Of a DNA stretch of 64,000 bases, positions 9,632 to 32,778 are shown in pieces. The notes beneath the pieces are model-generated. The model did no database searches and was not told the origin of the DNA. It saw only the letters and a list, made by a program, of their open reading frames with translations. Numbering within the stretch: position 1 is the stretch's first letter; the number at the start of each line of letters is the position of its first letter. Both the position numbers and the translations under genes were made by a program. The stretch is from Candidatus Kapaibacterium sp. GTDB taxonomy: Bacteria > Bacteroidota > Ignavibacteria > Kapaibacteriales > UBA7675. The stretch covers positions 1 through 64,000 of the forward strand of contig JANQRB010000153.1 in the NCBI GenBank assembly GCA_028284775.1. The letters are read 5' to 3'.

Positions 9632-10332
9632 ACGTTCTCGTGCAGGAAAAAATCGCGTAAAGCGAAACTCAGTCGCGCGGGCGCCAGGCCCTCCAGCGGA
9701 TGCGGCGTAGCCGGGAACACCTGCATTTCGGCCCCGGGGACCGCCCGGTAGACGGCGAGTGTTTCTTCCATCGTCACCATCGTATCCCGATCGCCCAATC
9801 CAAGGCGCAGCGGCTGGCCGATCGAGCTGCAGCGGTCGGGATGAAGACGGTCGTCCCGCCCGAGATCTGTCATCAGGGCCGCGGTGCCCGAGAGTACATT
9901 GCGCCAGCCATGCGCGGTGTGGCGGGACTGGAGCTGTTCGGCGAAACGCGGCACCTTGGCCTGTATTTTATCCGGGTCGAGGCCGCGGATTTCACGCGCC
10001 GCAATCTCGGGCGACCACTGCAATTTCGTACCCAGGGTACAAATACGCCTTACCCTTTCGGCTTCCAGCAGGGCCAACACCATCGCCACGTAACCGCCCA
10101 TGCTGTAGCCGAATATGTTCAGGGGGCCAAGCTGTCGTTCATCCTGCAATTCGCAGACATTCTGCACGAAAGTGTCGAGCCGAAATCCTTCGGGTCCCAG
10201 GCTCCGCTCCCCATGCCCTTCGAAATCAAGCAGGTGCAGACTGAAATGTTCCCGGAGCAGCGGCTCGAAGGGCTGCCATTGCTCCTGAGATCCAAGAGCG
10301 CCATGGAGTAAAAGCAGATCAGGTTTTTTCAT
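9628..10332 (-). CDS. Alpha/beta-fold hydrolase
   Basis: About 234 aa from ATG 10332, chosen because MKKPDLLLLHG puts the first beta strand and HG oxyanion motif in the usual place; the frame is open to 10374. The nucleophile elbow is GYSMGG (Ser at about residue 80), the acid is probably the Asp in GLGDRDTMV, and the His is in TPHPLEG. The pattern HG-GxSxGG-H is that of small esterases, MenH-like or carboxylesterase-type hydrolases. The substrate cannot be read from sequence. The start overlaps the end of the SpoIIE phosphatase gene by 14 bp, and its stop overlaps the nucleotidase start, so all three are likely translated from one message. Confidence 0.88.
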   Translation of the reverse strand: MKKPDLLLLHGALGSQEQWQPFEPLLREHFSLHLLDFEGHGERSLGPEGFRLDTFVQNVCELQDERQLGPLNIFGYSMGGYVAMVLALLEAERVRRICTLGTKLQWSPEIAAREIRGLDPDKIQAKVPRFAEQLQSRHTAHGWRNVLSGTAALMTDLGRDDRLHPDRCSSIGQPLRLGLGDRDTMVTMEETLAVYRAVPGAEMQVFPATPHPLEGLAPARLSFALRDFFLHENV

Positions 10333-13213
10333 CGGGGTTCTCGACTTCCTCTTGTCGTTGCTCGGAAAGGACATCCGTTATTTTCACCACTACCAGGGTT
10401 TGATCGTCATGTTGCTCGAAATCTTCAGCGTACTTTTGCACGGTAGTAATAATTTTGTCCCTGATATAGTGCGCATTACTCTCGGCGACCGATTCGAGCA
10501 GGCGATGCAAATCCTCTTCGCCGAACTCCGGTCCGTTCCCGCCCTTGGCTTCAGTAATGCCGTCCGTAAAAAATACGAAAATGTCGCCACTCTGATAGTC
10601 GACTTTCAATTCTTCCGTCCGCGCGCCGAAAATATCCGAGGCGACCAGGCCCAGACCGATACCGCGCGGAATGTAGGACTGTAAAGTGTCCGAAGATGGA
10701 ATGTAATGCAGCATCGGCCCGTGTCCCGCCCGCGCAATGGTCGCTCTGGCCGCCCCGGTATCGAAGGACACGGCCAGGGCGGTCACGAAGGACTCTTTCG
10801 ACAGGTCTTTGGCCAGCAGACCATTGGTCCGCGTTAAGATATCTTTGGGCCCCTGACAGAAGGGATGCAAAGAACGCAAGATACCCTGCACCTTGGACAT
10901 ATAAAGGGCGGCCGATGTGCCTTTGCCGCTCACGTCGCCGATTACGACCGTCAGCTCTTCCTGACTGTCGCCCGGGTCGAGATACTCGAAAAAATCGCCG
11001 CCGACTTCGAGGGCCGGAATCGAGATACCGGCAATATCCAGGCCCGGCAGCAAGGGTGTCTTTTGCGGCAGCGACTCAAGCTGAATCCGGCGTGCGATGG
11101 ACAGCTCGTGTTTCATGCGCTCCTGCTCGGCCAGATCTTCGTAGAGAAAGGCATTTTCGATGGTCACGGAAGCCTGAGCCGCCGCCGTCGTCAGAAAGGA
11201 AAGGTCCTCCCAACTCAGGGCGGTTTCAGACAGCTTTTCGCCGACGAACAAAGCTCCCACGGTCAATTCGTCGGAGCGCATTGGTATGATGTATTGGAAG
11301 TCGTAGTGGCGAAGGGCATTCTTCACCCCGTCCGGCAGATAGTCGACATTGAACTCCGACTTGAATTTCGGTATCGCCTCGACGATGGCAGCGGCATGCG
11401 TCAGGCAAATACTCTCCCATTCTTGCATATCCAGACCGGTGGCGCTTTGGCCGTGGATACGCCGGTCGCGCAGCAGCATGACCGCCATACGTTTGATGTG
11501 AAGAATCTGGGCCAGACGAATGACAAGCTCACGCGCCAGGTCGGAGGTGCTGACTTTGCTAAACAGCAGTTCGGTCAGCTCCGTGCTCGCGCTGCTGAAA
11601 TCGCGCCGGCTGCGATGGAACTTCTGATCGATCACCTGCTGGACGCCGCGCCGCAGATACCAGACAATCGCCAACAGAATGAGCGCCAGGGACATTTTAC
11701 AGATTGTTTCCAGGTACACGCGCTCTTCCAGTCCGAGCGGCTCACGGACGACTTCCACCGATACGCCGGTAAAGCGCAGGTTGGGCAGGTCCAGGTTGAA
11801 GGATGCGATATAGGCAATGCCGGCGATGATGAGCAGCGCGACGCTCAGTCCCCACAGCCAGGTAACCAGGGTATACTGAGTGTTGCGTCGCAGACGAAAC
11901 CTGAAGCCGAGCAGACGAAAACGGCTTATCAGATAAAAATAGATAATCGGTATAGCGGCCAGGAGCGCAATTGTATAACCGAAGAGATCGCCGCGATCGT
12001 TGCTGATGACGAAGACCGAGCTGATGGCGGTCAGCAAAACGGCGCCATAAACGAAATTGCGCAGCAGCCGTTCTTCGACGCTGAAACTTTCCTTACGCCG
12101 AAAGAAATCGGCGCATTCATTGGCAAAATGAAACAGAAAGAGCAGAACGATAACCGCCGGGAATGCGACCGGCGCAATCGTTTCGCTGAAATAGTTTTCG
12201 AAGAAGATCGCGGCAACCAGGGTGACCGCGCCCAGCAGGTACGGTATCAGGATCCGCCAGCGCAGGGTCGGCAGCCGAAAATGCTCGCGCGGAAAATACA
12301 GCAGACTGTGAAACCACAGGGGCAGCCCCAGCATGATGGCGGCGGTAAAGCCAAAATCACGCAGCACGCCGAAGGAGGACGAGGTGATAAAAGGCGAGCG
12401 ATTAAAAAAGGTGGCGATGAAGAAGCCGAGCAGCAGCAAAGCCGGCCCCGTCAGACGCGCGCTGTGGATATGGGCGCGCATCAGGGCAATGAAAATACCC
12501 AGGGCCATCCACAGGCTGCCCGTCAGAAATATGCTCAACATCGTGAAGCTGAGGCCGAAAGAGGCGACCTCGACCTGCAGGGTCATCACTCGGTTGGCGC
12601 GCAATATGTCGTAGGTAATAACGCTGCCGACCTTGGCTTGACGCAAAATCTTGTCGGCTTCGTTGACATCGTTGAAATTGAGTTTATTGATGCGAATGAT
12701 AAGGTCGCCGCGGCGCATCCCGGCCCGGTCGGAAGCGCCGCCCTCCAGCACATCGATTACATTGGCCACCGGCGGCAGCGTGTACACGAAATCTTCGGTC
12801 AGGTGCGCTTTATGAACCCGGAAGACGGCCCCACGCTGCTCTCCGCTGCGATAAAAGCCGATATCCACCGAGTCCGACTGCGATGCGCGAATGAAGTCAT
12901 GAACGCCGCGGACGCTGTCCGGACGGTTGCCGTTGACCGTCAGCAAAAGATCGCCTACGCGGGGCGAGCTGCGGACTTCTTCGCCGTCCTGGCCGCCCCA
13001 TTGCTCTCTGGGCAGGTCGGCGATTTTGACGCCGGGAATGTTTTCGACGATGTAAATCAGCGAAGGCGGATTGGCGTAGAAGTTTTCATCGGTGACCAGC
13101 GCGGCGTTTTGGTAGAGGTTGAGCACGGCAAGGGTCAGCAGCAGCACAGCAGGCACGCTGAACAGGCCGCGAAATAGATTCGGATGACGGTCGAAATAGG
13201 CCAGATCCGGCAC
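10319..13213 (-). CDS. Membrane PDZ-GAF-SpoIIE (PP2C-type) serine phosphatase
   Basis: 964 aa from GTG 13213, with AGGAG 8 bases upstream. Order: a membrane helix (about 14-35); two PDZ-like domains (about 75-140, with SPRVGDLLLTVNG, and 150-215, with GGASDRAGMRRGDLIIRIN); about eight membrane helices (220-470); a GAF-like domain (about 535-690); a short helix ELSIARRIQLESLP; and a SpoIIE/PP2C domain (about 705-945). Metal-site acids are visible in GGDFFEYL, VIGDVSGKG and FVFFTDGITEA. Such phosphatases act in partner-switching cascades on anti-anti-sigma (STAS) proteins. No STAS or anti-sigma gene is in the window, so the partner is elsewhere. PDZ domains at the N-terminus suggest a sensor of misfolded or proteolysed envelope peptides (inference). 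Confidence 0.9.
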   Translation of the reverse strand: MPDLAYFDRHPNLFRGLFSVPAVLLLTLAVLNLYQNAALVTDENFYANPPSLIYIVENIPGVKIADLPREQWGGQDGEEVRSSPRVGDLLLTVNGNRPDSVRGVHDFIRASQSDSVDIGFYRSGEQRGAVFRVHKAHLTEDFVYTLPPVANVIDVLEGGASDRAGMRRGDLIIRINKLNFNDVNEADKILRQAKVGSVITYDILRANRVMTLQVEVASFGLSFTMLSIFLTGSLWMALGIFIALMRAHIHSARLTGPALLLLGFFIATFFNRSPFITSSSFGVLRDFGFTAAIMLGLPLWFHSLLYFPREHFRLPTLRWRILIPYLLGAVTLVAAIFFENYFSETIAPVAFPAVIVLLFLFHFANECADFFRRKESFSVEERLLRNFVYGAVLLTAISSVFVISNDRGDLFGYTIALLAAIPIIYFYLISRFRLLGFRFRLRRNTQYTLVTWLWGLSVALLIIAGIAYIASFNLDLPNLRFTGVSVEVVREPLGLEERVYLETICKMSLALILLAIVWYLRRGVQQVIDQKFHRSRRDFSSASTELTELLFSKVSTSDLARELVIRLAQILHIKRMAVMLLRDRRIHGQSATGLDMQEWESICLTHAAAIVEAIPKFKSEFNVDYLPDGVKNALRHYDFQYIIPMRSDELTVGALFVGEKLSETALSWEDLSFLTTAAAQASVTIENAFLYEDLAEQERMKHELSIARRIQLESLPQKTPLLPGLDIAGISIPALEVGGDFFEYLDPGDSQEELTVVIGDVSGKGTSAALYMSKVQGILRSLHPFCQGPKDILTRTNGLLAKDLSKESFVTALAVSFDTGAARATIARAGHGPMLHYIPSSDTLQSYIPRGIGLGLVASDIFGARTEELKVDYQSGDIFVFFTDGITEAKGGNGPEFGEEDLHRLLESVAESNAHYIRDKIITTVQKYAEDFEQHDDQTLVVVKITDVLSEQRQEEVENPDEKT

Positions 13214-13388: not shown

Positions 13389-14744
13389 TCAAAAGCGCAG
13401 CGTAAAGCTCGTCTCCCTGCCCGCTTCGCTCGCCGCAGTTATGGTCCCGCCATGAGCGCGCATAATCTGACGCGACAGGCTGAGGCCGATGCCCGAGCCG
13501 TCGTCCTTGGTCGTATAAAATGGGATGAAAATGCGGTCGAGCGCCTCCTTCACAATTCCCGGCCCATTGTCCCTCACCTGGATAACCGGCCGTCCCCGAC
13601 TGTCGAGCCAGGCATGCAACCATAGTTGACCGGGATGCTGCCCGCGGATAGCATCGACGGCGTTCAGGATCAGATTGATCAGGACCTGTTCAATCAGGTC
13701 GCGGTCCGCAGTGAGCTCCAGGCTGAGCGGATCAATCTCGATGCTCATTTCGACTTCGTGTTTATCGATGTGGGCCTGCAGCAGATTCTGCAGGTGATCG
13801 AACAACTCAGCCACGGGAAACAGGCGAAACTCGGGCTGCGGCACGCGCATGATGTTGCGATAGGCGTCCACAAAGCCGATCAGTGCCTGACTGCGCTTCT
13901 CGATGGTTCGCAATGCGCTCATCGTATCCTGAATCCGTTCGTCCGTCGGCAGGCTGCGGTCGCTCTCTGCCGCCGTCGCGTCGGACAGCAGAGATGTGGC
14001 GGTGGCGGCCAGCGAAGAAATCGGTGTCACGGAGTTCATTATCTCGTGCGTCAGCACGCGGATCAGGTTCTGCCAGGCTTCGAGTTCTTTTTCTTCCAGC
14101 TCGCTCTGGATGTTCTGGATCGATACAAGCGTATAATGACTGCCGCGCATCTTGAATTCAACGGCATACATCACCAGCTGAAAAACATTGCCCTCCGCCT
14201 CCACCTTGATCAAGGCTCTTTCCCCCGAGCGCAGGGCCTGCATCCGTTCGACCATCGTAACGCTGAAGGAGGACAGGGCTTCAAGATGGCCGGCACGCGG
14301 CAGCTTAAACAGCTTCTTGGCCGCGTTATTGATCAACTGTATGGCGCCGTCGCCGTCAAAGGCGATCAGGCCGATCCCTACGTGACGCACGACGGTTTGC
14401 AGATAATTGACGTGCTCTTCTTTTTCAGCGCGCTGGCGCTTGAATTCATCCATCACTTCGGCAAAGGCGCTGCTCAGCTCGGTATAGGAGCCGCCGCGCG
14501 GCGCCAGAGAAAACGACTGCGAAAAATCCGAATGGCGAATGGCGAGCAGGAATCGCGTCAGATCGCGGTTGGTCTTCTCTACGAAGTTGATAAGATCCAC
14601 AATCTGATAGACAAGCAGGCCGCCGAGGATCAGAATCGTGGCATATTTGACCGTATTGAAATAAAGATAAAACAGAACGAGCAGCGTAGCGGCGATCAAC
14701 AGTACGCGCGTGATGCAGGCCAGGCGAAAACGCTTAAAGACCAT
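13389..14744 (-). CDS. Sensor histidine kinase (NtrB/NtrY-like)
   Basis: 451 aa from ATG 14744, which overlaps the response-regulator stop by 11 bp and is preceded by GGAAAAG; an open frame to 14801 is not needed. Two N-terminal membrane helices (about 8-45), a short linker, a PAS-like domain (VGIGLIAFDGDGAIQLINNAAKKLF), an H-box with phospho-acceptor His in LTHEIMNSVTPI, N-box LINLILNAVDAI, G1 IQVRDNGPGI and G2 DGSGIGLSLSRQIMRAHGG. The domain order and the coupled sigma-54 regulator point to the NtrY/AtoS type of kinase. There is almost no periplasmic loop between the helices, so the signal is probably sensed in the membrane or through the PAS domain. Confidence 0.93.
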   Translation of the reverse strand: MVFKRFRLACITRVLLIAATLLVLFYLYFNTVKYATILILGGLLVYQIVDLINFVEKTNRDLTRFLLAIRHSDFSQSFSLAPRGGSYTELSSAFAEVMDEFKRQRAEKEEHVNYLQTVVRHVGIGLIAFDGDGAIQLINNAAKKLFKLPRAGHLEALSSFSVTMVERMQALRSGERALIKVEAEGNVFQLVMYAVEFKMRGSHYTLVSIQNIQSELEEKELEAWQNLIRVLTHEIMNSVTPISSLAATATSLLSDATAAESDRSLPTDERIQDTMSALRTIEKRSQALIGFVDAYRNIMRVPQPEFRLFPVAELFDHLQNLLQAHIDKHEVEMSIEIDPLSLELTADRDLIEQVLINLILNAVDAIRGQHPGQLWLHAWLDSRGRPVIQVRDNGPGIVKEALDRIFIPFYTTKDDGSGIGLSLSRQIMRAHGGTITAASEAGRETSFTLRF

Positions 14745-16110
14745 ACTTTTCCAGTCTCCGGTAGAGCGACGTGCGGGTGAGCCCAAGCTCTTTGGCGGCA
14801 TGGGAGATATTGCCGCCGTTTTTACTGATCGCCCGGCGAATGACGGTTTTTTCCACCTCTTCGAGATTGAAGGAGTCGAATACTAGTCCGTCATCCCGGA
14901 CATCGGGCGCGCTGAGAAAGAAATCCGAGGGCTGCAGCACCAGCGATTCGCTCATTATTACGGCGCGTTCGACGGCGTGCATCAGTTCGCGCACATTGCC
15001 CGGCCAGGCGTATTGCTGAAGTTTTTTCAGCGCCCCCAGGCCCAGCCGCAATCCGACTTTGGCATACTTCCGGCTGAAGATCGCCAGAAAGTGGTTAACC
15101 AGCAGCTCGGTATCGTCCGCGCGTTCTCGCAGCGGCGGCAGATTGATCTCCACCGTATTGATCCGGTACAACAGATCCTGCCGAAAGGTTTTTTCCGCCA
15201 CCATTTCATAGATAGGCATGTTGGTGGCGCAGATCAGACGAATATCTATGTCGCGCGCCTTATGCGAGCCTAGACGCGTTACGACGCGATTTTGCAGCAC
15301 GGTAAGCAGCTTCGCCTGCAGGGCCAGCGGTAGGTTGCCGATTTCATCCAGGAAAATGGTACCGCCGTCGGCCAGCTCGAAACGTCCGGCCCGATCTTCA
15401 CGCGCGTCGGTGAAGGCCCCTTTCACATGTCCGAACAGCTCGCTCTCGAACAGGGTCTCGCTGATAGCGCCCATATCGACCGACAAAAAAACTTTGTCGG
15501 CGCGGGACGACTGGCGGTGCAGGGCTCGGGCAGCCATTTCTTTGCCCGTTCCGTTTTCACCCAGCAGCAATATACTCGCGTCGGTAGCGGCAACTTTGGC
15601 AATCGAGCTGAAGACGCGCTGCATCGCCGGGCTTGCGCCGATGATATCCTGGAAGTCCTGATCGAGGTCCGCGCTGAGCTGCTGTTGCTGCGAACGCAGC
15701 CGGTCCACTTCCAGTTGCGAACGCCGCAGTTTCATAGCCGCCGCCAGGGTGGCTAGCAGCTTTTCATTGTGCCAGGGCTTGACGACAAAATCCGTCGCAC
15801 CCTCCTTGATAGAGCGCACCGCCATCGAGATGTCGCCATAGGCCGTAATCAATACCACTACTGCCGCGGGATCGAGACGCAATATCTCGTTGAGCCAGTA
15901 GAATCCTTCGGTTCCGGTGCTGACATCCTTGGTGAAATTCATGTCCAGCAGAATCAGATCGTAGTTTTCATTCTTGAGCAGCGTCGGAATTGATTCCGGA
16001 TTTTGCTCGCAGTGCACGAGGGCGGCGTGCGGTTTCAACAACAAACGCGCTGCCAGCAGGACGTCTTCATCGTCGTCGATAACCAGTATGTTGCCAAATC
16101 GTTTTGTCAT
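14734..16110 (-). CDS. Sigma-54-dependent response regulator (NtrC family)
   Basis: 458 aa from ATG 16110 (MTKRFGNILVIDDDEDV); ATG 16125 and an open frame to 16323 are alternatives, but receiver domains normally begin at the chosen Met. Receiver: acidic pair DDDE, phospho-acceptor Asp in LILLDMNF, Thr in LITAYGD, Lys in VVKPW. AAA+ domain: Walker A GENGTGKE, sigma-54 contact loop GAFTDA (canonical GAFTGA), Walker B GGTIFLDEI, sensor region ICATNMPI, arginine finger region FRQDLLYRINTVEI. A Fis-type helix-turn-helix is at the C-terminus (NISHAAKELGLTRTSLYRRLEKYGL region). It would activate RNA polymerase with sigma-54. Two copies of a palindrome lie upstream at 16285-16300 and 16348-16363, suggesting self-binding. 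Confidence 0.95.
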   Translation of the reverse strand: MTKRFGNILVIDDDEDVLLAARLLLKPHAALVHCEQNPESIPTLLKNENYDLILLDMNFTKDVSTGTEGFYWLNEILRLDPAAVVVLITAYGDISMAVRSIKEGATDFVVKPWHNEKLLATLAAAMKLRRSQLEVDRLRSQQQQLSADLDQDFQDIIGASPAMQRVFSSIAKVAATDASILLLGENGTGKEMAARALHRQSSRADKVFLSVDMGAISETLFESELFGHVKGAFTDAREDRAGRFELADGGTIFLDEIGNLPLALQAKLLTVLQNRVVTRLGSHKARDIDIRLICATNMPIYEMVAEKTFRQDLLYRINTVEINLPPLRERADDTELLVNHFLAIFSRKYAKVGLRLGLGALKKLQQYAWPGNVRELMHAVERAVIMSESLVLQPSDFFLSAPDVRDDGLVFDSFNLEEVEKTVIRRAISKNGGNISHAAKELGLTRTSLYRRLEKYGL

Positions 16111-16284
16111 GGTTTTCCGAGGCATTTTTTCGGCGAAAGGCTCTTGTTGCAGCCCATTGGGCGCTATGGCCCTCATCTCAAATTCCGCGCCAAAATTGCG
16201 CTCCGCTGCCGGCTCGGGTCGTGCTCTGCTCTTATCTACATGCTTAGACTCCGGTGAGACCACAAAGGCTGCAAAAAAATGCAA

Positions 16285-16300
16285 TGTACGATAGCGTACA
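16285..16300. promoter_or_regulatory. Perfect palindrome, candidate operator A
   Basis: TGTACGATAGCGTACA: 6-bp arms TGTACG and CGTACA around 4 bases. It sits 175 bp upstream of the ATG of the NtrC-type regulator, outside any real gene. The same element plus its right flank (CGGCTGT) recurs at 20018 before the export operon; 20 of 23 positions agree. This is the expected shape and distance of an activator-binding enhancer site. Binding by the neighbouring regulator is inferred. Confidence 0.6.
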
Positions 16301-16347
16301 TCGGCTGTCACAAAAGCGTTCACCTTGCCTTACTTTTGACGCGGGAC

Positions 16348-18605: not shown

Positions 18606-19769
18606 TCAGCGCGTCGGATCCCAGACAAAATCACCGTAGGTATTGATGTAGCCGAGGTCTTTGCCATCGCGCACCTGTGCGATGCCGTTGCGAAACTTGT
18701 GAGCATGACTGAAGCGCGTTGAAATGACAAGCAGTCCTTTCGTGTTGACGAAACCCCATTCATAATCCAGGCGCACGGGCGCCAGACCTTCGGAAAAGGA
18801 GCCGGCATCCGCATAAATGGGATCGATAACGACGCGGCCTTCGCGATCGATAAAACCAAAGCCGGCGTTAATGCCGACACGAGCGAGGCCCTCGGCGAAC
18901 TGACCGGCATTGCGGTAACGGTTGGGGATGACCAGCTCTCCCGAGCGGTCGATATAGCCGTAAAGGCTGTCGACCATCACTCGCGCCAGGCCTTCGGTGA
19001 AAGGAAAAGCATGATCGAAACGCGGTTCGATGACCCAGGCGCCGCTGCGGTCGATATAACCGAAGCGACGGCCGTCTTCACTGGCGGGTGCCAGATCGCC
19101 GGCGAAATTGTAGGCCACCCGAAAGCGCGGCGCTATCTTCCATACCGTCGGGTTTAAGGGAGCGACGCTTTCAAAACTGACCTGGCGGCTGCGTTGGGCG
19201 TCGGGGCCGAAATTGCGGTGCAGGTAGCCGAACAATTCACCTTCACGCGCAAGGGCCAGGCCTTCGACAAAGCGACCGCACCATTCGAATTTGGGGCCGA
19301 CAACGACTGCGCCCTCCCGGTCGAGATAGCCGAAGAAATTGCGTTTTTCGATTGTCTTTTCGCCGACGGTAGCCTCGAAGGCGGCGAGGCCTTCGGAAAA
19401 GTCGCCGACCCATTCATAGTCGGCCTGGAAGACAAGCTGACCCTGGCGATCGATGTAACCCAGATCGTAGCCGGTAGTGAAGACAAACCACACGCGTGGT
19501 ATCAGGACCCTGGCCAGGCCGTCGCTGTAGTAGCTGCTGGCGCTGAGCTCGCTGAAGGTAAGGCTGTGGCTCGCACTGACGGGCATTCTGATTTTTTCGG
19601 TTTCCGCCAGATAGGCGGGCTCGACCTGAAGACGTCCTTCGCTATCGATAAAACCCAGCTTGTCATTGTCAAGAACCGGATGCAGCGCGAGAGCTTCATC
19701 GGAATTGCCATGCGCTCCACTGCTGCAGACGAGAAAGATGCCGAGTATCCACCAGACGAGGTTTTTCAT
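18606..19769 (-). CDS. WG-repeat secreted protein
   Basis: 387 aa. Signal peptide at residues 1-22 (MKNLVWWILGIFLVCSSGAHG). The rest is a series of about eight WG-type repeats with the pattern FGYIDRSGAWVIEPRFDHA..F.EGLARV, 28-45 residues apart. The WG repeat is a beta-rich module common in bacterial envelope proteins; no enzymatic function is known. Convergent with citrate synthase (30 bp between stops), so it does not belong to that transcription unit. The upstream 450 bp contains the export-operon promoter in the opposite direction. Confidence 0.92.
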   Translation of the reverse strand: MKNLVWWILGIFLVCSSGAHGNSDEALALHPVLDNDKLGFIDSEGRLQVEPAYLAETEKIRMPVSASHSLTFSELSASSYYSDGLARVLIPRVWFVFTTGYDLGYIDRQGQLVFQADYEWVGDFSEGLAAFEATVGEKTIEKRNFFGYLDREGAVVVGPKFEWCGRFVEGLALAREGELFGYLHRNFGPDAQRSRQVSFESVAPLNPTVWKIAPRFRVAYNFAGDLAPASEDGRRFGYIDRSGAWVIEPRFDHAFPFTEGLARVMVDSLYGYIDRSGELVIPNRYRNAGQFAEGLARVGINAGFGFIDREGRVVIDPIYADAGSFSEGLAPVRLDYEWGFVNTKGLLVISTRFSHAHKFRNGIAQVRDGKDLGYINTYGDFVWDPTR

Positions 19770-20221: not shown

Positions 20222-21499
20222 ATGGGTTTGCGAATGAGTGGAATGGACAAAATTGTCAAGAAGAAAACATGGACGGCCGGTCGGCTGACAGCGCTTGGTC
20301 TGGGGATCGTTTTCGTGAGCCTCGTCCTTTACAAGTTGTTGTGGGGCGACTTCAGCACTAAGCTCAACGTCGAAAGCGCGCGTATCAGCACAGCCAAAGT
20401 TATTCGCGATGATTTCCAGGAATTTATCCCGATTACCGGCAACGTTCTGCCGATCGAAACGGTTTTCCTCGATGCCGTGGAAGGCGGCGTGGTGGAACGG
20501 ATCTACGCCGAGGAAGGTCAGAATGTTGAAGCCGGCGACACGCTGCTGCGTCTGGGCAACACCGGTCTGCTTCTGAGTATCCTCCAGCAGGAAACCCAGC
20601 TCTTCGAGCAGGTCAATAACCTGCGCAATACCAAGCTGGCCATGGAAGAAAAGCGCATCAGCCTGGAAGAACAACTGCTGGAAATCGACTATCAACTGCA
20701 GGAGCAGCGCGACCTGTTCGACCGCAATCAGCAGCTCGCCGACCACAAGGTCATTGCCGAGGAAGAATTCGAAAGGATCCGTTACCGCCTCGATTATCTG
20801 ACGCGGCGCAAACACCTGGCCGTGCAGTCTTATCGGCAGGACTCGATCTTTCGCACCCAGCAGATACGCCAGCTGGAGGGTTCGCTGAGCCGGATGGAAG
20901 CGACGATGGAGGTGGTGCAGCAGCGACTGGAAGATCTTGTCGTGCGCGCGCCGATAGCCGGCCAGTTGACCTCGCTGACGATGGAAATCGGCGAGTTGAA
21001 AACACAGGGGCAGCGCCTCGGTCAGATCGACAAACTCGACCGTTATAAAGTACGCGCTTCGATTGACGAGCACTATATCCGGCGCGTCTTTCCCGGCCAG
21101 GAAGGCGAGTTCGAACTTTCCGGCGACTCCTTCCGCCTGGTCGTTCACAAAGTGTACCCCGAGGTTCTCAACGGCAGCTTCGAAGTCGATCTGATGTTCA
21201 GCGATCTGGTTCCCGAGGACATTCGGCGAGGACAGACTTTTCACATCAAGCTGGCCCTCGGTCGGCTGGTGGAGGCGCTGCTCATTCCCCGCGGCGGCTT
21301 TTTTCAACAAACCGGCGGCAAATGGATCTTTGTGCTGCAGGCCGGCGGCGAAGTCGCGGTGAAACGCCCGATCCGCCTGGGGCGCCAGAATACGCAGCAC
21401 TACGAAGTACTGGAAGGACTTGAGCCCGGTGAAACCGTCATCGTCTCGTCCTATGAAAACTATGGCGACATCGACAAACTGGTTCTTAAACAACAATAA
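20222..21499 (+). CDS. HlyD/RND-type periplasmic adaptor protein
   Basis: 425 aa from ATG 20222 (GAGAA upstream); ATG 20234 and 20243 are alternatives. One N-terminal membrane helix (LTALGLGIVFVSLVLYKLL), a lipoyl/barrel-sandwich half motif (VEGGVVERIYAEEGQNVEAGDTLLRL), a long coiled-coil hairpin (about 100-225, rich in Glu/Gln/Leu), the second lipoyl half (DLVVRAPIAGQLTSL), and beta-barrel and membrane-proximal domains to the end (LEGLEPGETVIVSSYENYGDI). Such adaptors join an inner-membrane MacB-type ABC transporter to an outer-membrane channel; no TolC gene is in the window. First gene of the export operon, 26 bp before the ATPase. Confidence 0.93.
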   Translation: MGLRMSGMDKIVKKKTWTAGRLTALGLGIVFVSLVLYKLLWGDFSTKLNVESARISTAKVIRDDFQEFIPITGNVLPIETVFLDAVEGGVVERIYAEEGQNVEAGDTLLRLGNTGLLLSILQQETQLFEQVNNLRNTKLAMEEKRISLEEQLLEIDYQLQEQRDLFDRNQQLADHKVIAEEEFERIRYRLDYLTRRKHLAVQSYRQDSIFRTQQIRQLEGSLSRMEATMEVVQQRLEDLVVRAPIAGQLTSLTMEIGELKTQGQRLGQIDKLDRYKVRASIDEHYIRRVFPGQEGEFELSGDSFRLVVHKVYPEVLNGSFEVDLMFSDLVPEDIRRGQTFHIKLALGRLVEALLIPRGGFFQQTGGKWIFVLQAGGEVAVKRPIRLGRQNTQHYEVLEGLEPGETVIVSSYENYGDIDKLVLKQQ

Positions 21500-21525: not shown

Positions 21526-22207
<682 letters not shown>

Positions 22208-22215
<8 letters not shown>

Positions 22216-24619
22216 GAATTATCTCAAGTCGGCGCTGCGCAACCTGCTTCGTTTTAAGATTTATTCGGTGATCAACATTCTCGGGCTGGCAATCGGGATG
22301 GCCTGCGCAATCCTGCTGATGCTCTATATCGATGGTGAAACGAGCTATGACTCGCACTATGCGAACGCCGACAGAACCTATCGCATTACAAACGAGATTA
22401 CGATTTCCGGCAAAGTCGATCGCGCAGCGCTGGTGCCCTTTCCGGTGGCCAAGACCTTGCTGAAGGACTTTCCCGAAGTGGAGCAGGCGGGACGCTTCAT
22501 GAAACAGGCCGACCGCGCCTCGGTGAAACATGAAGACCAGCAATACATCATTGAACAGAGTTTCTTCGCCGACTCCACCATTCTGGATCTGTTCAACTAT
22601 GATTTTGTGTTCGGCGACTCCAGGACGGCGCTGCAGGAGCCCAATTCCATTGTCATTACCGCCAGCGTTGCCGACAAAATATTCGGTTCGGACGATCCGA
22701 TCGGCAAATTGCTGATGTTCGACAATGCAAGCCCCGGTCAAGTCACGGGCGTGGTGCGCGATCATCCCGACAACACGCACCTGAAGTGGAACTCGCTGGT
22801 TTCGATGTCGACCCTGGACACCATCATTTCCAAGCGCTCCCGGGAGAACTGGCTGGCTGTTACCAACTACACCTACTTCAGGCTGCGCGACGGCGCCGAT
22901 CCCGATCAACTGCGCAGCAAGCTACCCGATCTTTACACGAATTACATCGAGGAAATCGCGCGTCAGTTCAACACCGATTGGCAATTCGAGATCATGCCGA
23001 TCAATGATATCCATCTCAACTCGGATTTTGTCTGGGAGCCATCGCCGGTCGGCAATGTGATGAATGTTTACATATTCCTGGCCGTCGCCGTTTTCATCCT
23101 GCTGATCGCCAGCATCAATTACATGAACCTGGCAACGGCGCGTTCCGCCGGTCGCGCCCGCGAAATCGGCATCCGCAAAGTTCTCGGCGCCGTCCGCGGA
23201 CAACTCATGAAACAATTTCTGCTCGAATCGCTGTTTGTGACGGCCGTGGCGCTGGTGCTGGCCTTTATGCTGGCCGAGGCGGCATTGCCGCTGTTTAACC
23301 ATCTGGCGGACAAAGCCTATGTGATCGAGTATACCTCCGATCCCGAATTTATGCTGAGTGTTCTCGGCATGGCGCTGCTCGTGGGCCTGCTGGCCGGCAT
23401 TTATCCCGCGCTCTTTTTGTCGTCCTTTCGACCCATCGCCGTGCTGAAAGGCATCCTGGCGCAGCGCTCGGGCGGCTCGCTCCTTCGCAAAGGGCTGGTG
23501 ATCCTGCAGTTTACCATTTCGATCGCAATGATCATCGGTGCGATAATTGTTAACAGTCAATTAAATTATCTTAAACAGAAAGAGCTCGGTTTCAAGGCGG
23601 ATCAACTGCTGGTCGTAGAGATTCCGTCCGATACGACGCTGCGCAATCAGATGGATGCGGTCCACAGCACCATGCGCAGCCACAACGGTATTCTGAACAC
23701 GTCCGTCAGTACCAGTATTCCGGGGCGCGACCCCATTAAACAGCTGTGCAAAATCGAGAAAGACAGCAACCTGATCGAATCGGTAATGAATCTCTTTTTC
23801 GTGGATTACGATTATCTCGACGTTATGGGCCTGGAGCTGGCGCAGGGACGCAATTTCGATCGCGAGATCAGAACTGACTCGCGGGAGTCTTTCCTCGTGA
23901 ACGAGGCCCTGGTGCGCCACTACGGCTGGGACGAAGCGCTCGGCAAGCGAATTCAGTGGGGTCTGGATGTGGACGGCAGCGCCGCCCGCGATGGTAAAGT
24001 AATCGGCGTCGTGAAAGATTTCAATGTTCTTTCGCTGCACAATCCCGTGGAGCCGCTTGCCATAATCCTGCGCCCATTTCCTACCGGCTATTTTTTCGTT
24101 CGCATCGAAACGGATGATATCCAGGCCGCAGTGGGACATGTGGAAGACACATGGAAGCAATTCGACCAGGGACGGCCACCGGATTACTTCTTTATGGATG
24201 AATATTTTAACCGTCAATACCAGGCCGAAGAGCAGCGGGCGACGATATTTCTCTCATTTACGATATTGACGATTCTCATCGCCTGTCTGGGTCTATTCGG
24301 TCTGTCGTCCTTTACCTCCGAGCAGCGAACCAAAGAGATCGGCATTCGCAAGGTGATCGGCGCTTCCATCGGCGACATCGTGTTGTTGCTCTCACGCGAC
24401 TTTCTGCGACTGGTTCTGATCGCCATCGGTCCCGCCTGGCTGCTGGCCTACTTCTATATGAATACCTGGCTGCAGAATTTCGCCTATCGCGTGGACGTCA
24501 ACGCGCTGCCCTTTGTGGTGGCCGGCATCATCGCTGTTGCAATAGCTCTGACGACCGTTGCCTATCAGGCGGTCAAAGCAGCCGTCGCAAACCCGGTCGA
24601 GTCGTTGAAATATGAGTGA
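22208..24619 (+). CDS. ABC transporter permease, double FtsX/MacB type
   Basis: 803 aa with a duplicated architecture. First half: membrane helix (SVINILGLAIGMACAILLML), MacB-like periplasmic domain (about 45-280), then three helices of an FtsX domain including the motif ATARSAGRAREIGIRKVLGA. Second half: helix GLVILQFTISIAMIIGAIIV (about 425), a second periplasmic domain (about 450-670), and a second FtsX domain with SSFTSEQRTKEIGIRKVIGA. It ends NPVESLKYE, as usual. It probably forms the inner-membrane part of a tripartite exporter with the ATPase and HlyD protein. Paralogous to the permease at 26689. Confidence 0.95.
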
Positions 24620-24773: not shown

Positions 24774-26573
24774 ATGGATTCCCTCCCTTGTTCCCGGCTG
24801 TCGACCTTCCGCACGATCATCCGCGGCAAGTATCTGAGCGCCGTACTTTTAGTAGCCTTTGTGGCGGGCAGCGGGATGCTGGAGGCGCAGAATGTGCTGG
24901 TTGAATTCAACGGCATCGACCAGCGCCGTATCAAGGCTCGCGCCTTTACCACCGACGCCGATCAGACGATGGTCATTGAAGCGACAGGCGCTCCGATTCA
25001 AAAGAGTTTCATGAAAAAGATCGGTGAAGCGATTATCAAGCGTGACTATTCCGTGACCCTCTCGGCCTGGATCCTCAACTCGGATACCCGCGAGCTGGTC
25101 TGGGAACTTGAAAACGGGACGGTCAAAGTACTGGAAGATGAAAACACGGTAGTGTTGCGCGATGAAATTGCGCTGGGCGCCGGAAAATTCGAAGTGTATG
25201 TTTATCCTCGCTACTTCACCAAAAATGTCTCGGTCATGGGGATTTTCGATTACGACTCCCATGAAGACGTGGCCGATTTCGCCGATGAAGTCAGCGATTT
25301 CTTTCGCGATATCAAAATCGAACTGCGCGGCAATGGCACGCTCCTCAGTCCCGACGTAGTCAATACGATCCATAAATCGCTGATCGCCAATGCCATTGTG
25401 GCTATTGAAGGCGATCAGCCGAATCAACTCGAACGGCGCGGCTTTACGCTTGCCGAGGATATGGAGCTGCGTGTGTACTCGATCGGCGAGCTGTATCATA
25501 AAGATGAATTCGACTACGGCTGGATCCAGAATGCCGAGACCGGCGTAAAAGTTTGGGATATGAGCCATCAGAATTCCCGCCATGCCGGCGGCGCAGCCAA
25601 GAATCGGATGGTAGACGATATAATCTCTCTGCCCAAAGGTTCGTATGTAGCGCACTTTGCCAGTGACGACTCGCATTACAAACGCAGCTGGAACGCCACG
25701 CCCCCGCATGATCCTCTTTTTTGGGGTCTGGCCGTCTTTGCGGCCAACCCGGCGCAGCGTTCATTGGCCAGCACTTTCAACTACAAGGACATGTGGTCGC
25801 AAAATGTCATTGTCGACCTGAGCAGGTTGCGGGACGACAGCTTCGAGGAAAAAGGCTTCACGCTCAAAAAGCCTATGCAGGTCCGCATCTTTGCTCTCGG
25901 CGAAGGACTCTGGGGTCATCTGGCGGATTACGGCTGGCTCGTGAACTCGCGGACCGGCGAACGTGTATGGGAAATGAAGTACAGCCGGACGGAACACGCC
26001 GGTGGCAATGACAAGAACCGGATGGTGCAGAAAACGATCGATTTGCCCGCCGGCAGCTATATGGCCTACTTCGTTACCGACGATTCGCATGCCTACGACG
26101 ACTGGAATGCCGCGCAGCCCTTCGAGCCGGAGCGCTGGGGCCTGACAATCATTGGCGGCGAAAATTATGACGCCGGCGCCGTAAAAGACTACAACCCCGA
26201 GGAAGATCGCTCGGTGCTGGCTCAGCTGATTCGCGTCACGGACGACGGCCACTTTGAAAAACGCTTCACACTCGATCAGGCGCGTGAGGTGCATATCTAT
26301 GCGCTGGGCGAGGGTTTTAACGGCGATATGTACGACTATGCCTGGATTGAAGAGGTCGGCTCCGGTACCGTGGTTTGGGAGATGACCTACCGCATGACCC
26401 GGCACGCCGGCGGCGCCCGCAAGAATCGTTCTTATAGCGGCAGCATCATGCTCAAAGCCGGCCAGTATGAAGTGTTTTACAAATCCGATGATTCACACTC
26501 CTTTTCCGATTGGAACGATGCACCGCCCTTTGATCCCGCACACTGGGGCATTACGGTCTCGCAGTTGAAGTAA
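24774..26573 (+). CDS. Secreted protein with three copies of an unrecognised ~105-residue repeat
   Basis: 599 aa; AGAGG before ATG 24774 supports the start. Signal peptide to about residue 39 (GSGMLEAQ). Residues 40-150 look like a degenerate copy of the repeat, 150-215 are partly helical, then three clear copies follow at about 220-325, 357-462 and 492-599. The shared pattern is GFTL....VRIYALGEG....DYGWI....TG..VWEM...T.HAGG..KNR, then LPAGSY.A.F..DDSH...DWN...PF.P..WG. HAGG, KNR, DDSH and WN are invariant or nearly so and could form a ligand or metal site. I do not recognise the family. It lies between two permeases of the same exporter operon, so it is likely a periplasmic or surface partner or cargo. 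Confidence 0.88.
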   Translation: MDSLPCSRLSTFRTIIRGKYLSAVLLVAFVAGSGMLEAQNVLVEFNGIDQRRIKARAFTTDADQTMVIEATGAPIQKSFMKKIGEAIIKRDYSVTLSAWILNSDTRELVWELENGTVKVLEDENTVVLRDEIALGAGKFEVYVYPRYFTKNVSVMGIFDYDSHEDVADFADEVSDFFRDIKIELRGNGTLLSPDVVNTIHKSLIANAIVAIEGDQPNQLERRGFTLAEDMELRVYSIGELYHKDEFDYGWIQNAETGVKVWDMSHQNSRHAGGAAKNRMVDDIISLPKGSYVAHFASDDSHYKRSWNATPPHDPLFWGLAVFAANPAQRSLASTFNYKDMWSQNVIVDLSRLRDDSFEEKGFTLKKPMQVRIFALGEGLWGHLADYGWLVNSRTGERVWEMKYSRTEHAGGNDKNRMVQKTIDLPAGSYMAYFVTDDSHAYDDWNAAQPFEPERWGLTIIGGENYDAGAVKDYNPEEDRSVLAQLIRVTDDGHFEKRFTLDQAREVHIYALGEGFNGDMYDYAWIEEVGSGTVVWEMTYRMTRHAGGARKNRSYSGSIMLKAGQYEVFYKSDDSHSFSDWNDAPPFDPAHWGITVSQLK

Positions 26574-26688: not shown

Positions 26689-29082
26689 TTGTTCAGCAAC
26701 TACCTTCTTGTAGCGCTTCGCAATTTCGCGCGTAATAAAGTATTTTCATCGATCAACGTGATTGGGCTGAGCGTCGGACTCTGTTCCTGTCTGTTGATCG
26801 TGTTGTTTATTAACGATGAGCTCAGCTACGATCGGCAGAACGAGCACGCCGAATCGATCTACCGACTTGAAAGCAGGTACGTAGCCGACGGGCAGGAGCG
26901 GCGTTGGGCAGCAGTACAGTCGGCGATGCTGCCCTATGTGCAGGAGCAATCGCCTGAAGTAGTCGCCGGCGTTCGCATTCAACGCAATCTCAACCCCGTC
27001 ATCCTGCGCTATGAAGATCAGAGTTTCACCGAAACGGGGCTGGTCTTTGCCGATTCCAGCATCTTCGATGTCTTCACTCTCCCCCTGATTCACGGCGATC
27101 CGGCCACAGCGCTTAACGATCCCGCGGCATTGGTTGTCGACGAGACGACGGCTCGTAAGTTTTTCGGCGGCGTCGATGTGCTTGGCAAAACGCTGACCTC
27201 CGTCAACGGCGCGTCCTTCAAAATTACCGGCGTGATGCGGGACCTGCCCCGCCAGTCGCATTTTCACTTCACATGCCTCGGTTCAACGCAACTGCTGCCG
27301 GAAGGATGGATCAACTGGTCGATCAGCGACTACTACACTTATATTCGCTTGCAGGCGCCCGAGCAGGTTACGGCCATCGAGGAACGCATCCCGGCGCTGG
27401 TCGAAGGATTGTTTGAAGGTCAGGCCAACAGAAGTGAATACAGTATCAGGCTGCGGCCTCTTCTGGACATTCACCTGTACAGCCATATCGAGAAAGAATT
27501 CCGTCCGAACGGCAATGTGGCCTATATCTATATTCTGGGCGTGATCGCCGCTTTTCTGTTAATCATCGCCTGCTTCAACTATATGAATCTCTCCACGGCC
27601 CGGGCGGTGCGGCGCGCCCGCGAGGTAGGCATACGCAAGGTGATGGGCGCACGCCGTACGCAGCTCATCCAGCAGTTTCTCGGTGAGTCGCTGCTGCTTG
27701 CTCTCATGGCCGCGCTGCTGGCTCTGCTGATCCTGAGCCTTGTGTTGCCGGAGTTTAACGAACTGGCCGGTACGAGCTTCAGCTTTGCCGATATGCTGCA
27801 GATCGAGCAATTGGCTCTTCTGTTCGGCATTGCGCTCGGGACGGGATTGCTGGCGGGCAGTTATCCGGCGTTTTTTCTTTCGGTGTTCAGGCCTGCGGCC
27901 GTGTTAAAGGGTTCTTCAGTTAGACTTAACAACAGTTCACGATTTTCACTGCTTTTGCGTCGTTCGCTGGTCGTCGGACAATTCGTCATCTCGATCGTGT
28001 TGATTATCGGCACGGCGGTGTTGCTGCGACAGCTTAATTTCATGCAAAGCAAAAACCTGGGATACAATAAGGAACAGGTTCTCGTCTTGCCTCTGTCATC
28101 CATCGAGAGTCGGCAAAAGCTGCCGCTGCTGAAGGAGCGACTGTTGCAGCACAGCGCCGTGAATGCAGCCACGGCATCCTTTGAAGTGCCGGGCAAGCGC
28201 CTGCCCTACCTTGGCGGACGCTTCGAAGGACAGTCCGAAGAGACTTCTATCTCATGGCGGACGCTTGCCGTCGATGCGGACTTCCTCCCGGCGATGGGCC
28301 TGCAGCTCGTCGCCGGACGAAACTTCGACGCTGCCGTCGGCAGCGATTCGAGCGCCGCCTTTATCGTTAACGAAGCTTTCGCGCGCGCTGTCGGCTGGGA
28401 GGAGCCGCTCGGCAAAAGCTACGAATACGACTTTCGCCTCGACAGCCCGAAATCAGGCAGTGTCATCGGCGTGGTGAAGGATTTCCATTATGCCTCGCTG
28501 CATCAGGCGGTTGAACCGCTGGTAATGCATATCTGGCCGGCCCATTATCGCGTGCTCTCGCTGCGCCTGGCAAGAGGCGATATTCAATCGACTCTGGCGC
28601 AGCTCGATGACATCTGGCAGGACTTGCTGCCCGGCCTTCCCTTCGAGCACTTCTTTCTCGACGAGACCTATGAGCGCCTCTACCAGAAAGAACGCAGCCT
28701 GGGCCAGATCTTCAGTGTTTTCACTTTGTTGGCGATCGGCATCGCCTGTCTGGGCCTGTTCGGACTCTCGGCCTTTGCGGCCGAACAACGGACCCGTGAA
28801 ATCGGCATCCGCAAAATTCTCGGCGCCAGCACCGGTAGCCTCTCCTATTTGCTATCCAGGGAATTCATCATCCTCGTGGTCGTCGCCAACCTACTGGCCT
28901 GGCCGATCGCCTGGTACGGCGCCGACGCCTGGCTGCAAAACTTCGCCTATCGCAGCGCGATCGACTGGTATCTCTTTCCGCTCGCAGCCTTTGGCGCGCT
29001 GCTGATCGCGCTGGCGACGGTCAGTGTCCGGGCAATAAAGATAGCCATGGCGAATCCTGTTAAAGCTTTGCGGCACGAGTAA
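26689..29082 (+). CDS. ABC transporter permease, double FtsX/MacB type (second)
   Basis: 797 aa from TTG 26689, chosen because the protein then starts (M)FSNYLLVALRNFARNKVFSSIN and aligns residue for residue with the first permease; the frame is open to GTG 26587 but the 34 extra residues are unlike the family. The same duplicated plan: helix, periplasmic domain, FtsX motif STARAVRRAREVGIRKVMGA, helix, second periplasmic domain, second FtsX motif SAFAAEQRTREIGIRKILGA, end ANPVKALRHE. It has no ATPase of its own nearby, so it probably uses the one at 21526, alone or as a heterodimer with the first permease. Confidence 0.93.
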   Translation: MFSNYLLVALRNFARNKVFSSINVIGLSVGLCSCLLIVLFINDELSYDRQNEHAESIYRLESRYVADGQERRWAAVQSAMLPYVQEQSPEVVAGVRIQRNLNPVILRYEDQSFTETGLVFADSSIFDVFTLPLIHGDPATALNDPAALVVDETTARKFFGGVDVLGKTLTSVNGASFKITGVMRDLPRQSHFHFTCLGSTQLLPEGWINWSISDYYTYIRLQAPEQVTAIEERIPALVEGLFEGQANRSEYSIRLRPLLDIHLYSHIEKEFRPNGNVAYIYILGVIAAFLLIIACFNYMNLSTARAVRRAREVGIRKVMGARRTQLIQQFLGESLLLALMAALLALLILSLVLPEFNELAGTSFSFADMLQIEQLALLFGIALGTGLLAGSYPAFFLSVFRPAAVLKGSSVRLNNSSRFSLLLRRSLVVGQFVISIVLIIGTAVLLRQLNFMQSKNLGYNKEQVLVLPLSSIESRQKLPLLKERLLQHSAVNAATASFEVPGKRLPYLGGRFEGQSEETSISWRTLAVDADFLPAMGLQLVAGRNFDAAVGSDSSAAFIVNEAFARAVGWEEPLGKSYEYDFRLDSPKSGSVIGVVKDFHYASLHQAVEPLVMHIWPAHYRVLSLRLARGDIQSTLAQLDDIWQDLLPGLPFEHFFLDETYERLYQKERSLGQIFSVFTLLAIGIACLGLFGLSAFAAEQRTREIGIRKILGASTGSLSYLLSREFIILVVVANLLAWPIAWYGADAWLQNFAYRSAIDWYLFPLAAFGALLIALATVSVRAIKIAMANPVKALRHE

Positions 29083-31384: not shown

Positions 31385-32778
31385 TACTGTCTGCCTCTGG
31401 CAAATATTGAATTCGAAGGTAGTTGTTTAGGCCGCAGGGCTTCCGGACCTGCGATTGCAAATCAGTTTGAAGCAGGAAGTCTACCACAGTTTACACTGTC
31501 AAAAGCGACGAAGTCTTCAGTTCGCGCGCGAAGAAGCAATTCGCTTTTTGCGGCGTTTTAGCGCAGCAACTCTATAGACTTCAAGCGAACAAATTTACAC
31601 TTTTGCCCTTTATTCACAATTGCCGGGCAGTACTCTCCTGGCAGTAATCACGCAAACAACTGATTTTCAAGTAATTTCCGCTGAGTTCAGCAGGAAGCGC
31701 AATCTGACACTCGTGGGCAGAAGAATATTCCGTCCACATCTTCTATCCCCGGACGATGAGGATTCCGTTACATACGAATTGATTCGATTGTGATGAGTAC
31801 AAGCATTTGATACCGTCGCACAGCTCGATCGCTTAACTCGGATCAACTTAAACGCTTGTCGCCGTTCAATCTTCCCGTTAGAGTGTTGCTTTGAATACCC
31901 TGCATGGTTTGTCAAGCGGAAATGAAATTGCTGGCAGCTCTACTCAACAGCAGGCTCCTGATCACCCTCATCTAGACACTGTATCCCTGGCTTGTTGGGA
32001 ATATCACAAACAGGAATCGCGATTCTTAACACACTCTGATAGTCTCAACCGACATTCCCTATCATACGATCAGGTCGGATCTCCACTGAATGCAGCGATT
32101 CTCATAGCCGTGCGAATGCCGCTGCATTCTTCCAAAGTATTAACAGCTTCCGGTCATGAAACTGAATCCCTCGTCGAGCTTCCGCCCTGCGCCCAAGCAT
32201 GTTAATTGTTAAATCACTCTGCACGAAACGCTGGACCAGAGCGGATGCCTCTGCAGCGCCTCGATTGGAGGATCGGCCGCGCAGCCGGGCCCGTTTACAA
32301 AGCCCGTCAGAGGCTCATAATCTTTTCCACTAGTGACAGCGGTTGAATCGCAGCATGCTCCATCCATACTGCATTGGCCGGGTAACTCACAAATGCTGCC
32401 CCCTTGTGCCGAAAGCAAAGAGCCACACATAGCGAATTTTGGCAAAGTGCTGAACTGGACGCCAGTTCCCACCGGTAGAATAAGGAACTCAAATTGGCAA
32501 GAACGAATGCAGGGCCGGTATGCCTCCGGAGCTCTTGCACAGACAAGAGTTTCGATGTTTCCTGATAACAGCAAGAGCGGCTATTCTACTTCCGGCCGAG
32601 TTACATCCTTTGGATAATCGTAAAGAATACCGCGAATATGACTGACTAAGTCATCCCTCGCATATGAATTTGCATCAATGGTAACCAAAAGTTATCTGAC
32701 GTGTTGCAGACACTTCCGCACTCAGTTTCCAATTCCATCGTGAATCATTGTCATCGCACAGGGAAATTGGAGTTAGTT
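31385..32778. other. AT-rich intergenic stretch, no gene seen
   Basis: About 1.4 kb. The frames present (31667-31915 minus, 31891-32205 plus, 32209-32574 minus) overlap one another, lack ribosome sites and show no recognisable fold. The last 80 bp includes an in-frame extension of the next gene. No tRNA or repeat was found. Confidence 0.5.

Follow-up and report, generated by a model that had tools for sequence, protein, structure and literature searches.

The window, the whole 64-kb stretch of DNA that was analysed, carries a gene for a secreted protein built of four repeat units, which is embedded in a cluster resembling the MacAB/ADOP-type ABC exporters (Table 1). The initial annotation had placed this open reading frame exactly, and it had rightly recognized MacB-like permeases on both sides, each of which combines MacB_PCD and FtsX domains. 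An AAAGAGG stretch reminiscent of a ribosome-binding site can be read just 5' of the ATG of the repeat gene. Promoter and terminator scans yielded hits at chance level only, and no RNA families were found in the 64-kb window. The G+C content and third-position G+C content of the repeat gene equal those of the neighbouring genes and thus give no sign of a recent foreign origin. We also rejected an origin from phages or plasmids, as the searches gave no matches: viral contigs contained only a 15-residue match to the repeat protein and PHROGs only a 12-residue match, and a Foldseek search of viral structures gave no match with E below 1e-3.

Table 1. Repeat gene, its units, the exporter cluster and the block syntenic with G474 in the window.
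Feature	Coordinates	Strand	Remarks
Membrane PDZ-GAF-SpoIIE phosphatase	10319..13213	-	block syntenic with G474
Histidine kinase	13389..14801	-	block syntenic with G474
Sigma-54 response regulator	14734..16323	-	block syntenic with G474
Membrane-fusion (HlyD/RND-adaptor-like) protein	20234..21499	+	start inferred from L201 homologue
ABC ATPase, MacB/LolD/DarD type	21526..22215	+	neighbour in L201 76% identical
MacB_PCD/FtsX permease, first copy (ADOP-like, duplicated)	22208..24619	+	
Four-unit repeat protein gene	24774..26573	+	599 aa, secreted; profile and family searches
Probable signal peptide, residues 1-38	24774..24887	+	hydrophobic segment 20-38, then AQ
Unit 0, degenerate, about residues 52-150	24927..25223	+	scaffold kept, polar site lost
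Unit 1, residues 217-327	25422..25754	+	
Unit 2, residues 355-465	25836..26168	+	modelled singly, pLDDT 93
Unit 3, residues 491-599	26244..26570	+	
MacB_PCD/FtsX permease, second copy	26689..29082	+	start inferred by alignment to first copy

The three motif copies noticed earlier were recovered at fixed spacing, with HAGG at residues 270, 408 and 544 and KNR, DDSH and WN following at +6, +28 and +36 in each copy. A unit of roughly 105 residues had been proposed; the size of about 105-110 residues holds, whereas the pattern recurs every 136-138 residues, as the units are kept apart by linkers about 27 residues long. Units 1-3 share 43-46% pairwise identity and 33 invariant columns, and their local alignments score 250-278, whereas shuffled sequences average 28-30 and reach 66 at most. 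The degenerate first copy, also suspected from the beginning, is marginal inside the window protein (score 60 against unit 2, shuffled maximum 56; profile E 1.35) and secure in its homologues, where the profile E falls to 4e-15. The export signal is supported by inspection, since a hydrophobic N-terminal segment is followed by AQ in the manner of a signal peptide.

The initial annotation knew of no named family with this pattern, and indeed the window protein has no match in Pfam, NCBIfam or the PDB sequences: no curated family covers the repeat unit, and the PDB sequence search found no relative of it. The unit is an undescribed domain family that is numerous across many bacterial phyla. In a phylum-wide sample, relatives occurred in 67 of 395 genomes and 45 of 171 genera, and a profile search returned the same 67 genomes. 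A scan of contigs from named genomes with the unit-3 alignment as query gave 430 relatives, mostly from FCB-type phyla. The 80 that were kept come from records labelled Ignavibacteria, Bacteroidota, KSB1, Calditrichota, Zixibacteria, Latescibacterota, Marinimicrobia, Gemmatimonadota and Krumholzibacteria, and from a few labelled Acidobacteriota, Deltaproteobacteria or Actinomycetota, which may be binning errors. Within the window's order, the gene is present in 2 of 123 genomes, both of the window's family. Four units are the usual plan of stand-alone members: scoring found four strong units in 90 free-standing proteins, three strong ones behind a weak first unit in 17, and three units in six. 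The phyla concerned are little studied, and the repeat unit represents a widely conserved domain without a name in them. Literature searches on the repeat motifs, on Reg_prop with SpoIIE, on partner switching in Bacteroidetes and on duplicated orphan permeases found nothing useful.

A position-by-position comparison of 106 four-unit proteins revealed that E23, D31, G56-G57, K60-N61-R62, D82, S84, H85, N91 and P95 of units 1-3 are kept in most or all members. Unit 0 keeps W34, W45, L70, G73 and Y75 and has lost the polar set, most of which is retained in the single units that are inserted into sensors (see below). Judged from this sequence conservation, the polar set probably forms a functional site in three units and was lost in unit 0, which may be a structural cap; alternatively, the conserved polar residues could be structural.

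The model of the whole 599-aa protein reached a mean pLDDT of 85. Structure prediction of a single unit, which had been proposed as a check, produced a seven-stranded jelly-roll beta-sandwich of high confidence (unit 2, pLDDT 93) without a close solved relative, as the search of solved structures with this unit gave no match with E below 1e-3. Its weak fold neighbours are generic jelly-rolls, carbohydrate-binding modules (CBMs) and a collagen-binding domain; the CBM35-like and collagen-binding neighbours (1nqj, 7zvo, 2wz8) have a Foldseek E of at best 4e-3 overall and a TM of about 0.4-0.5. With CBM35-like, collagen-binding (PPC-type) and DUF5013 domains the unit has in common a beta-hairpin of the form N-...-I-x-L-x-A-G-x-Y, but no full-length match exceeds the cut-off. 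Membership in DUF5013 (PF16405), with which the unit has only the hairpin in common, was rejected: a single-unit protein of locus L079 scored 27.4 bits against a cut-off of 28.5, over 52 residues, and the similarity in hhalign spans 21 columns only. CUB domains (PF00431) are likewise extracellular-type jelly-rolls of about 110 residues; tandem CUBs of C1r/C1s and MAP-1 are among the Foldseek matches of the whole protein, and the spacing of the acidic motif is reminiscent of the Ca site E/D/D-x-S of Ca-binding CUBs. However, the 50 best matches of the single-unit search include no CUB, hhalign gave a probability of 1% against bacterial CUBs and Pfam searches found no match of PF00431 to the unit, and membership in this family was thus rejected as well.

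The unit is also found, as a single copy, in 13 further proteins, inside sensors of the Reg_prop/Y_Y_Y type at residues of about 530-685 (earlier in L073). Nine of these sensors have SpoIIE outputs, two have histidine kinase outputs as read from the sequence (L075, L077), and the remaining two are cut by the end of the locus. The unit occurs in periplasmic receptor parts with different outputs, which is a trait of an extracytoplasmic sensor input. Locus L072 encodes two adjacent sensors whose chief difference is the repeat-unit insert, which the paralogue lacks. The window protein has the unit in common with these sensors of the hybrid two-component type, but it is free-standing and contains neither propeller nor output domain.

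The neighbourhoods of the free-standing genes likewise point to signalling. Neighbours were counted by tblastn throughout in 125 loci, of which a few are duplicates, that is, one contig in two collections; tblastn also corrected neighbours that had been mis-called antisense among mechanically picked ORFs (L201). A SpoIIE gene lies within 2.5 kb of the repeat gene in 19/125 loci, always on the opposite strand, and in most of these loci HATPase_c_2 genes follow behind it; HATPase_c_2 genes are found in 20/125 loci, and L060 has a STAS gene nearby. SpoIIE density amounts to 3.4 per 100 kb near the repeat gene versus 0.4-0.7 further out, and the genomes checked contain only 4-17 SpoIIE genes each. 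Eighteen of the 19 SpoIIE neighbours probably represent one inherited arrangement, and independent events are therefore few: at least one, plus L127, which has another tree position and whose divergent 7TM-DISM SpoIIE is alike in the phosphatase domain only. The pairing of repeat gene and divergent SpoIIE gene is suggestive of a functional pair but no proof of it. At several loci of another clade, the divergent gene next door encodes a histidine kinase, and what lies beside the repeat gene at most loci outside the SpoIIE clade is unremarkable (transketolase, Bat genes, aconitase and others). In partner switching of the RsbU/RsbV/RsbW type, SpoIIE phosphatases act on STAS proteins and HATPase anti-sigma factors. 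Genes for all three adjoin the repeat gene in one clade, yet the repeat protein is none of these components: the window protein has no SpoIIE, STAS or HATPase domain, which occur only in neighbours and sensor relatives, and the SpoIIE gene of the window is 11.5 kb away.

Considering the observed architecture, predicted fold, conservation, fusions and neighbourhoods together, we lean towards the reading that the repeat protein is a periplasmic or surface binding protein that feeds envelope signalling, and that its unit is a ligand-binding sensor-input module of a new domain family. The exported protein would contain three ligand-binding jelly-roll units after one unit that keeps the fold without the binding residues. 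In each active unit, the polar site would comprise E23, D31, the GG-KNR loop 56-62, D82-x-S84-H85 and N91 and may bind an extracytoplasmic ligand or ion. Single units, spliced between propeller blades of Reg_prop/Y_Y_Y receptors, would serve as sensor input for SpoIIE-phosphatase or histidine-kinase outputs. The four-unit protein, whose gene in one large clade diverges from that of a membrane SpoIIE phosphatase accompanied by STAS and HATPase_c_2 partners, would be periplasmic or surface-exposed, and its ligand state could feed envelope signalling; free-standing proteins would present three such sites and sensors one. Only tentatively do we extend this to an extracytoplasmic sensor family of FCB-type bacteria, which might consist of a soluble receptor with three active sites and a degenerate cap, acting via SpoIIE partner switching, and of a plug-in site for propeller sensors. 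The family offers concrete genes and residues for asking which signal from the envelope is passed to SpoIIE-type partner switching and to Reg_prop sensors in these phyla.

The position of the window gene had led the initial annotation to propose a periplasmic or surface partner of the transporter, or its substrate. A dedicated accessory or sensor of the surrounding exporter of membrane-fusion protein, ATPase and permease, capturing for example substrate for the MacB-like pump, would explain why the gene sits between two permeases. It would also suit the permease neighbours in L032, L035 and L085 and the related genome G474 of the same family, where the repeat gene comes right after those for membrane-fusion protein and ATPase (L201:6581-10599) and the order SpoIIE-HK-RR-...-WG-MFP-ATPase-gene is kept; in L039, adaptor and ATPase genes lie just downstream. 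However, the G474 locus encodes no permease, and the sole similar one is on another contig. When we asked whether homologues always sit beside FtsX/MacB permeases, most proved to lie away from transporters: a MacB-type permease is found within 2.5 kb in 4/125 loci (the window and the three named above), and close to the gene the density of permeases, at 0.7 per 100 kb, hardly exceeds the 0.4-0.5 seen further out. Permease adjacency is in much part explained by permease-rich hosts, with 47 permeases in G340, at least 97 in G219, at least 97 in the genome of L085 and 23 in that of the window, compared with 7-13 in most other genomes checked; in the permease-rich genomes G224, G356 and G051, no permease adjoins the repeat gene. 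An exporter-linked clade was not found on a tree of 104 rows, on which the four permease-adjacent members are scattered (4 changes versus a shuffled mean of 4.0). Moreover, Pfam and NCBIfam searches detected no exporter-component domain in the repeat protein, which is thus embedded in a MacAB/ADOP-like cluster but differs from such exporters in its domains and in the mostly different location of its homologues. The proposed partnership is hence for the most part not supported. The adaptor and ATPase genes in G474 and L039 make a link at the level of the lineage possible; at most, the exporter link is lineage-level and the placement in the window lineage-specific. We consider a dedicated accessory unlikely, and the spread of the unit over many phyla, together with its reuse in membrane sensors, makes a sensing or binding module likelier than a component of the adjacent pump. 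A gene between transporter genes need not be part of the transporter.

Other roles at the cell surface also have to be weighed. The pump could export the protein as its substrate, or the protein could take no part in sensing and be a structural component of the surface or matrix, as its secretion, its repetitive beta-sandwich units and its N-terminal signal would allow. This seems very doubtful, because the protein brings a signal peptide or N-terminal anchor of its own, its units are reused inside receptors and its polar positions are conserved beyond the needs of a matrix repeat. A carbohydrate- or peptidoglycan-binding accessory of envelope remodelling, whose links to signalling would be incidental, would fit the CBMs and the collagen-binding domain among the weak fold neighbours as well as the fusion of a unit to a class C beta-lactamase-like domain in L076 and the neighbours of that kind at L079 and L035. 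Neither sequence nor structure gave a significant CBM match, however, and the occurrence of single units in sensors speaks for signal input; we regard such an accessory as rather improbable.

Several further observations concern the surroundings of the family. One unit is attached C-terminally to a class C beta-lactamase-like hydrolase (L076:7041-8600), a fusion that would be expected if the unit is a portable accessory module, and a similar hydrolase lies beside a single-unit ORF (L079:7913-9461). L085 and L035 (G340) feature arrays of MacB/FtsX permeases with glyoxalase, PD40 and repeat genes as passengers, plus a beta-lactamase-like gene in L035. At four loci (L043, L147, L152, L048) the repeat gene and an ABC ATPase gene are transcribed divergently, with an ABC-2 type permease in addition in L043, and three of the four have a SpoIIE gene 2.9-4 kb off on the opposite strand. 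The SpoIIE phosphatase of the window is one of only three such genes in the 7.9 Mb genome. The gene for a WG-repeat protein (18606-19769), kept in G474, has a citrate-synthase-like gene on one side and that of the exporter adaptor on the other. Finally, a BNR/sortilin-type repeat protein (32701-34875) has a weak match to a Por secretion tail, which suggests that the genome possesses type IX secretion.
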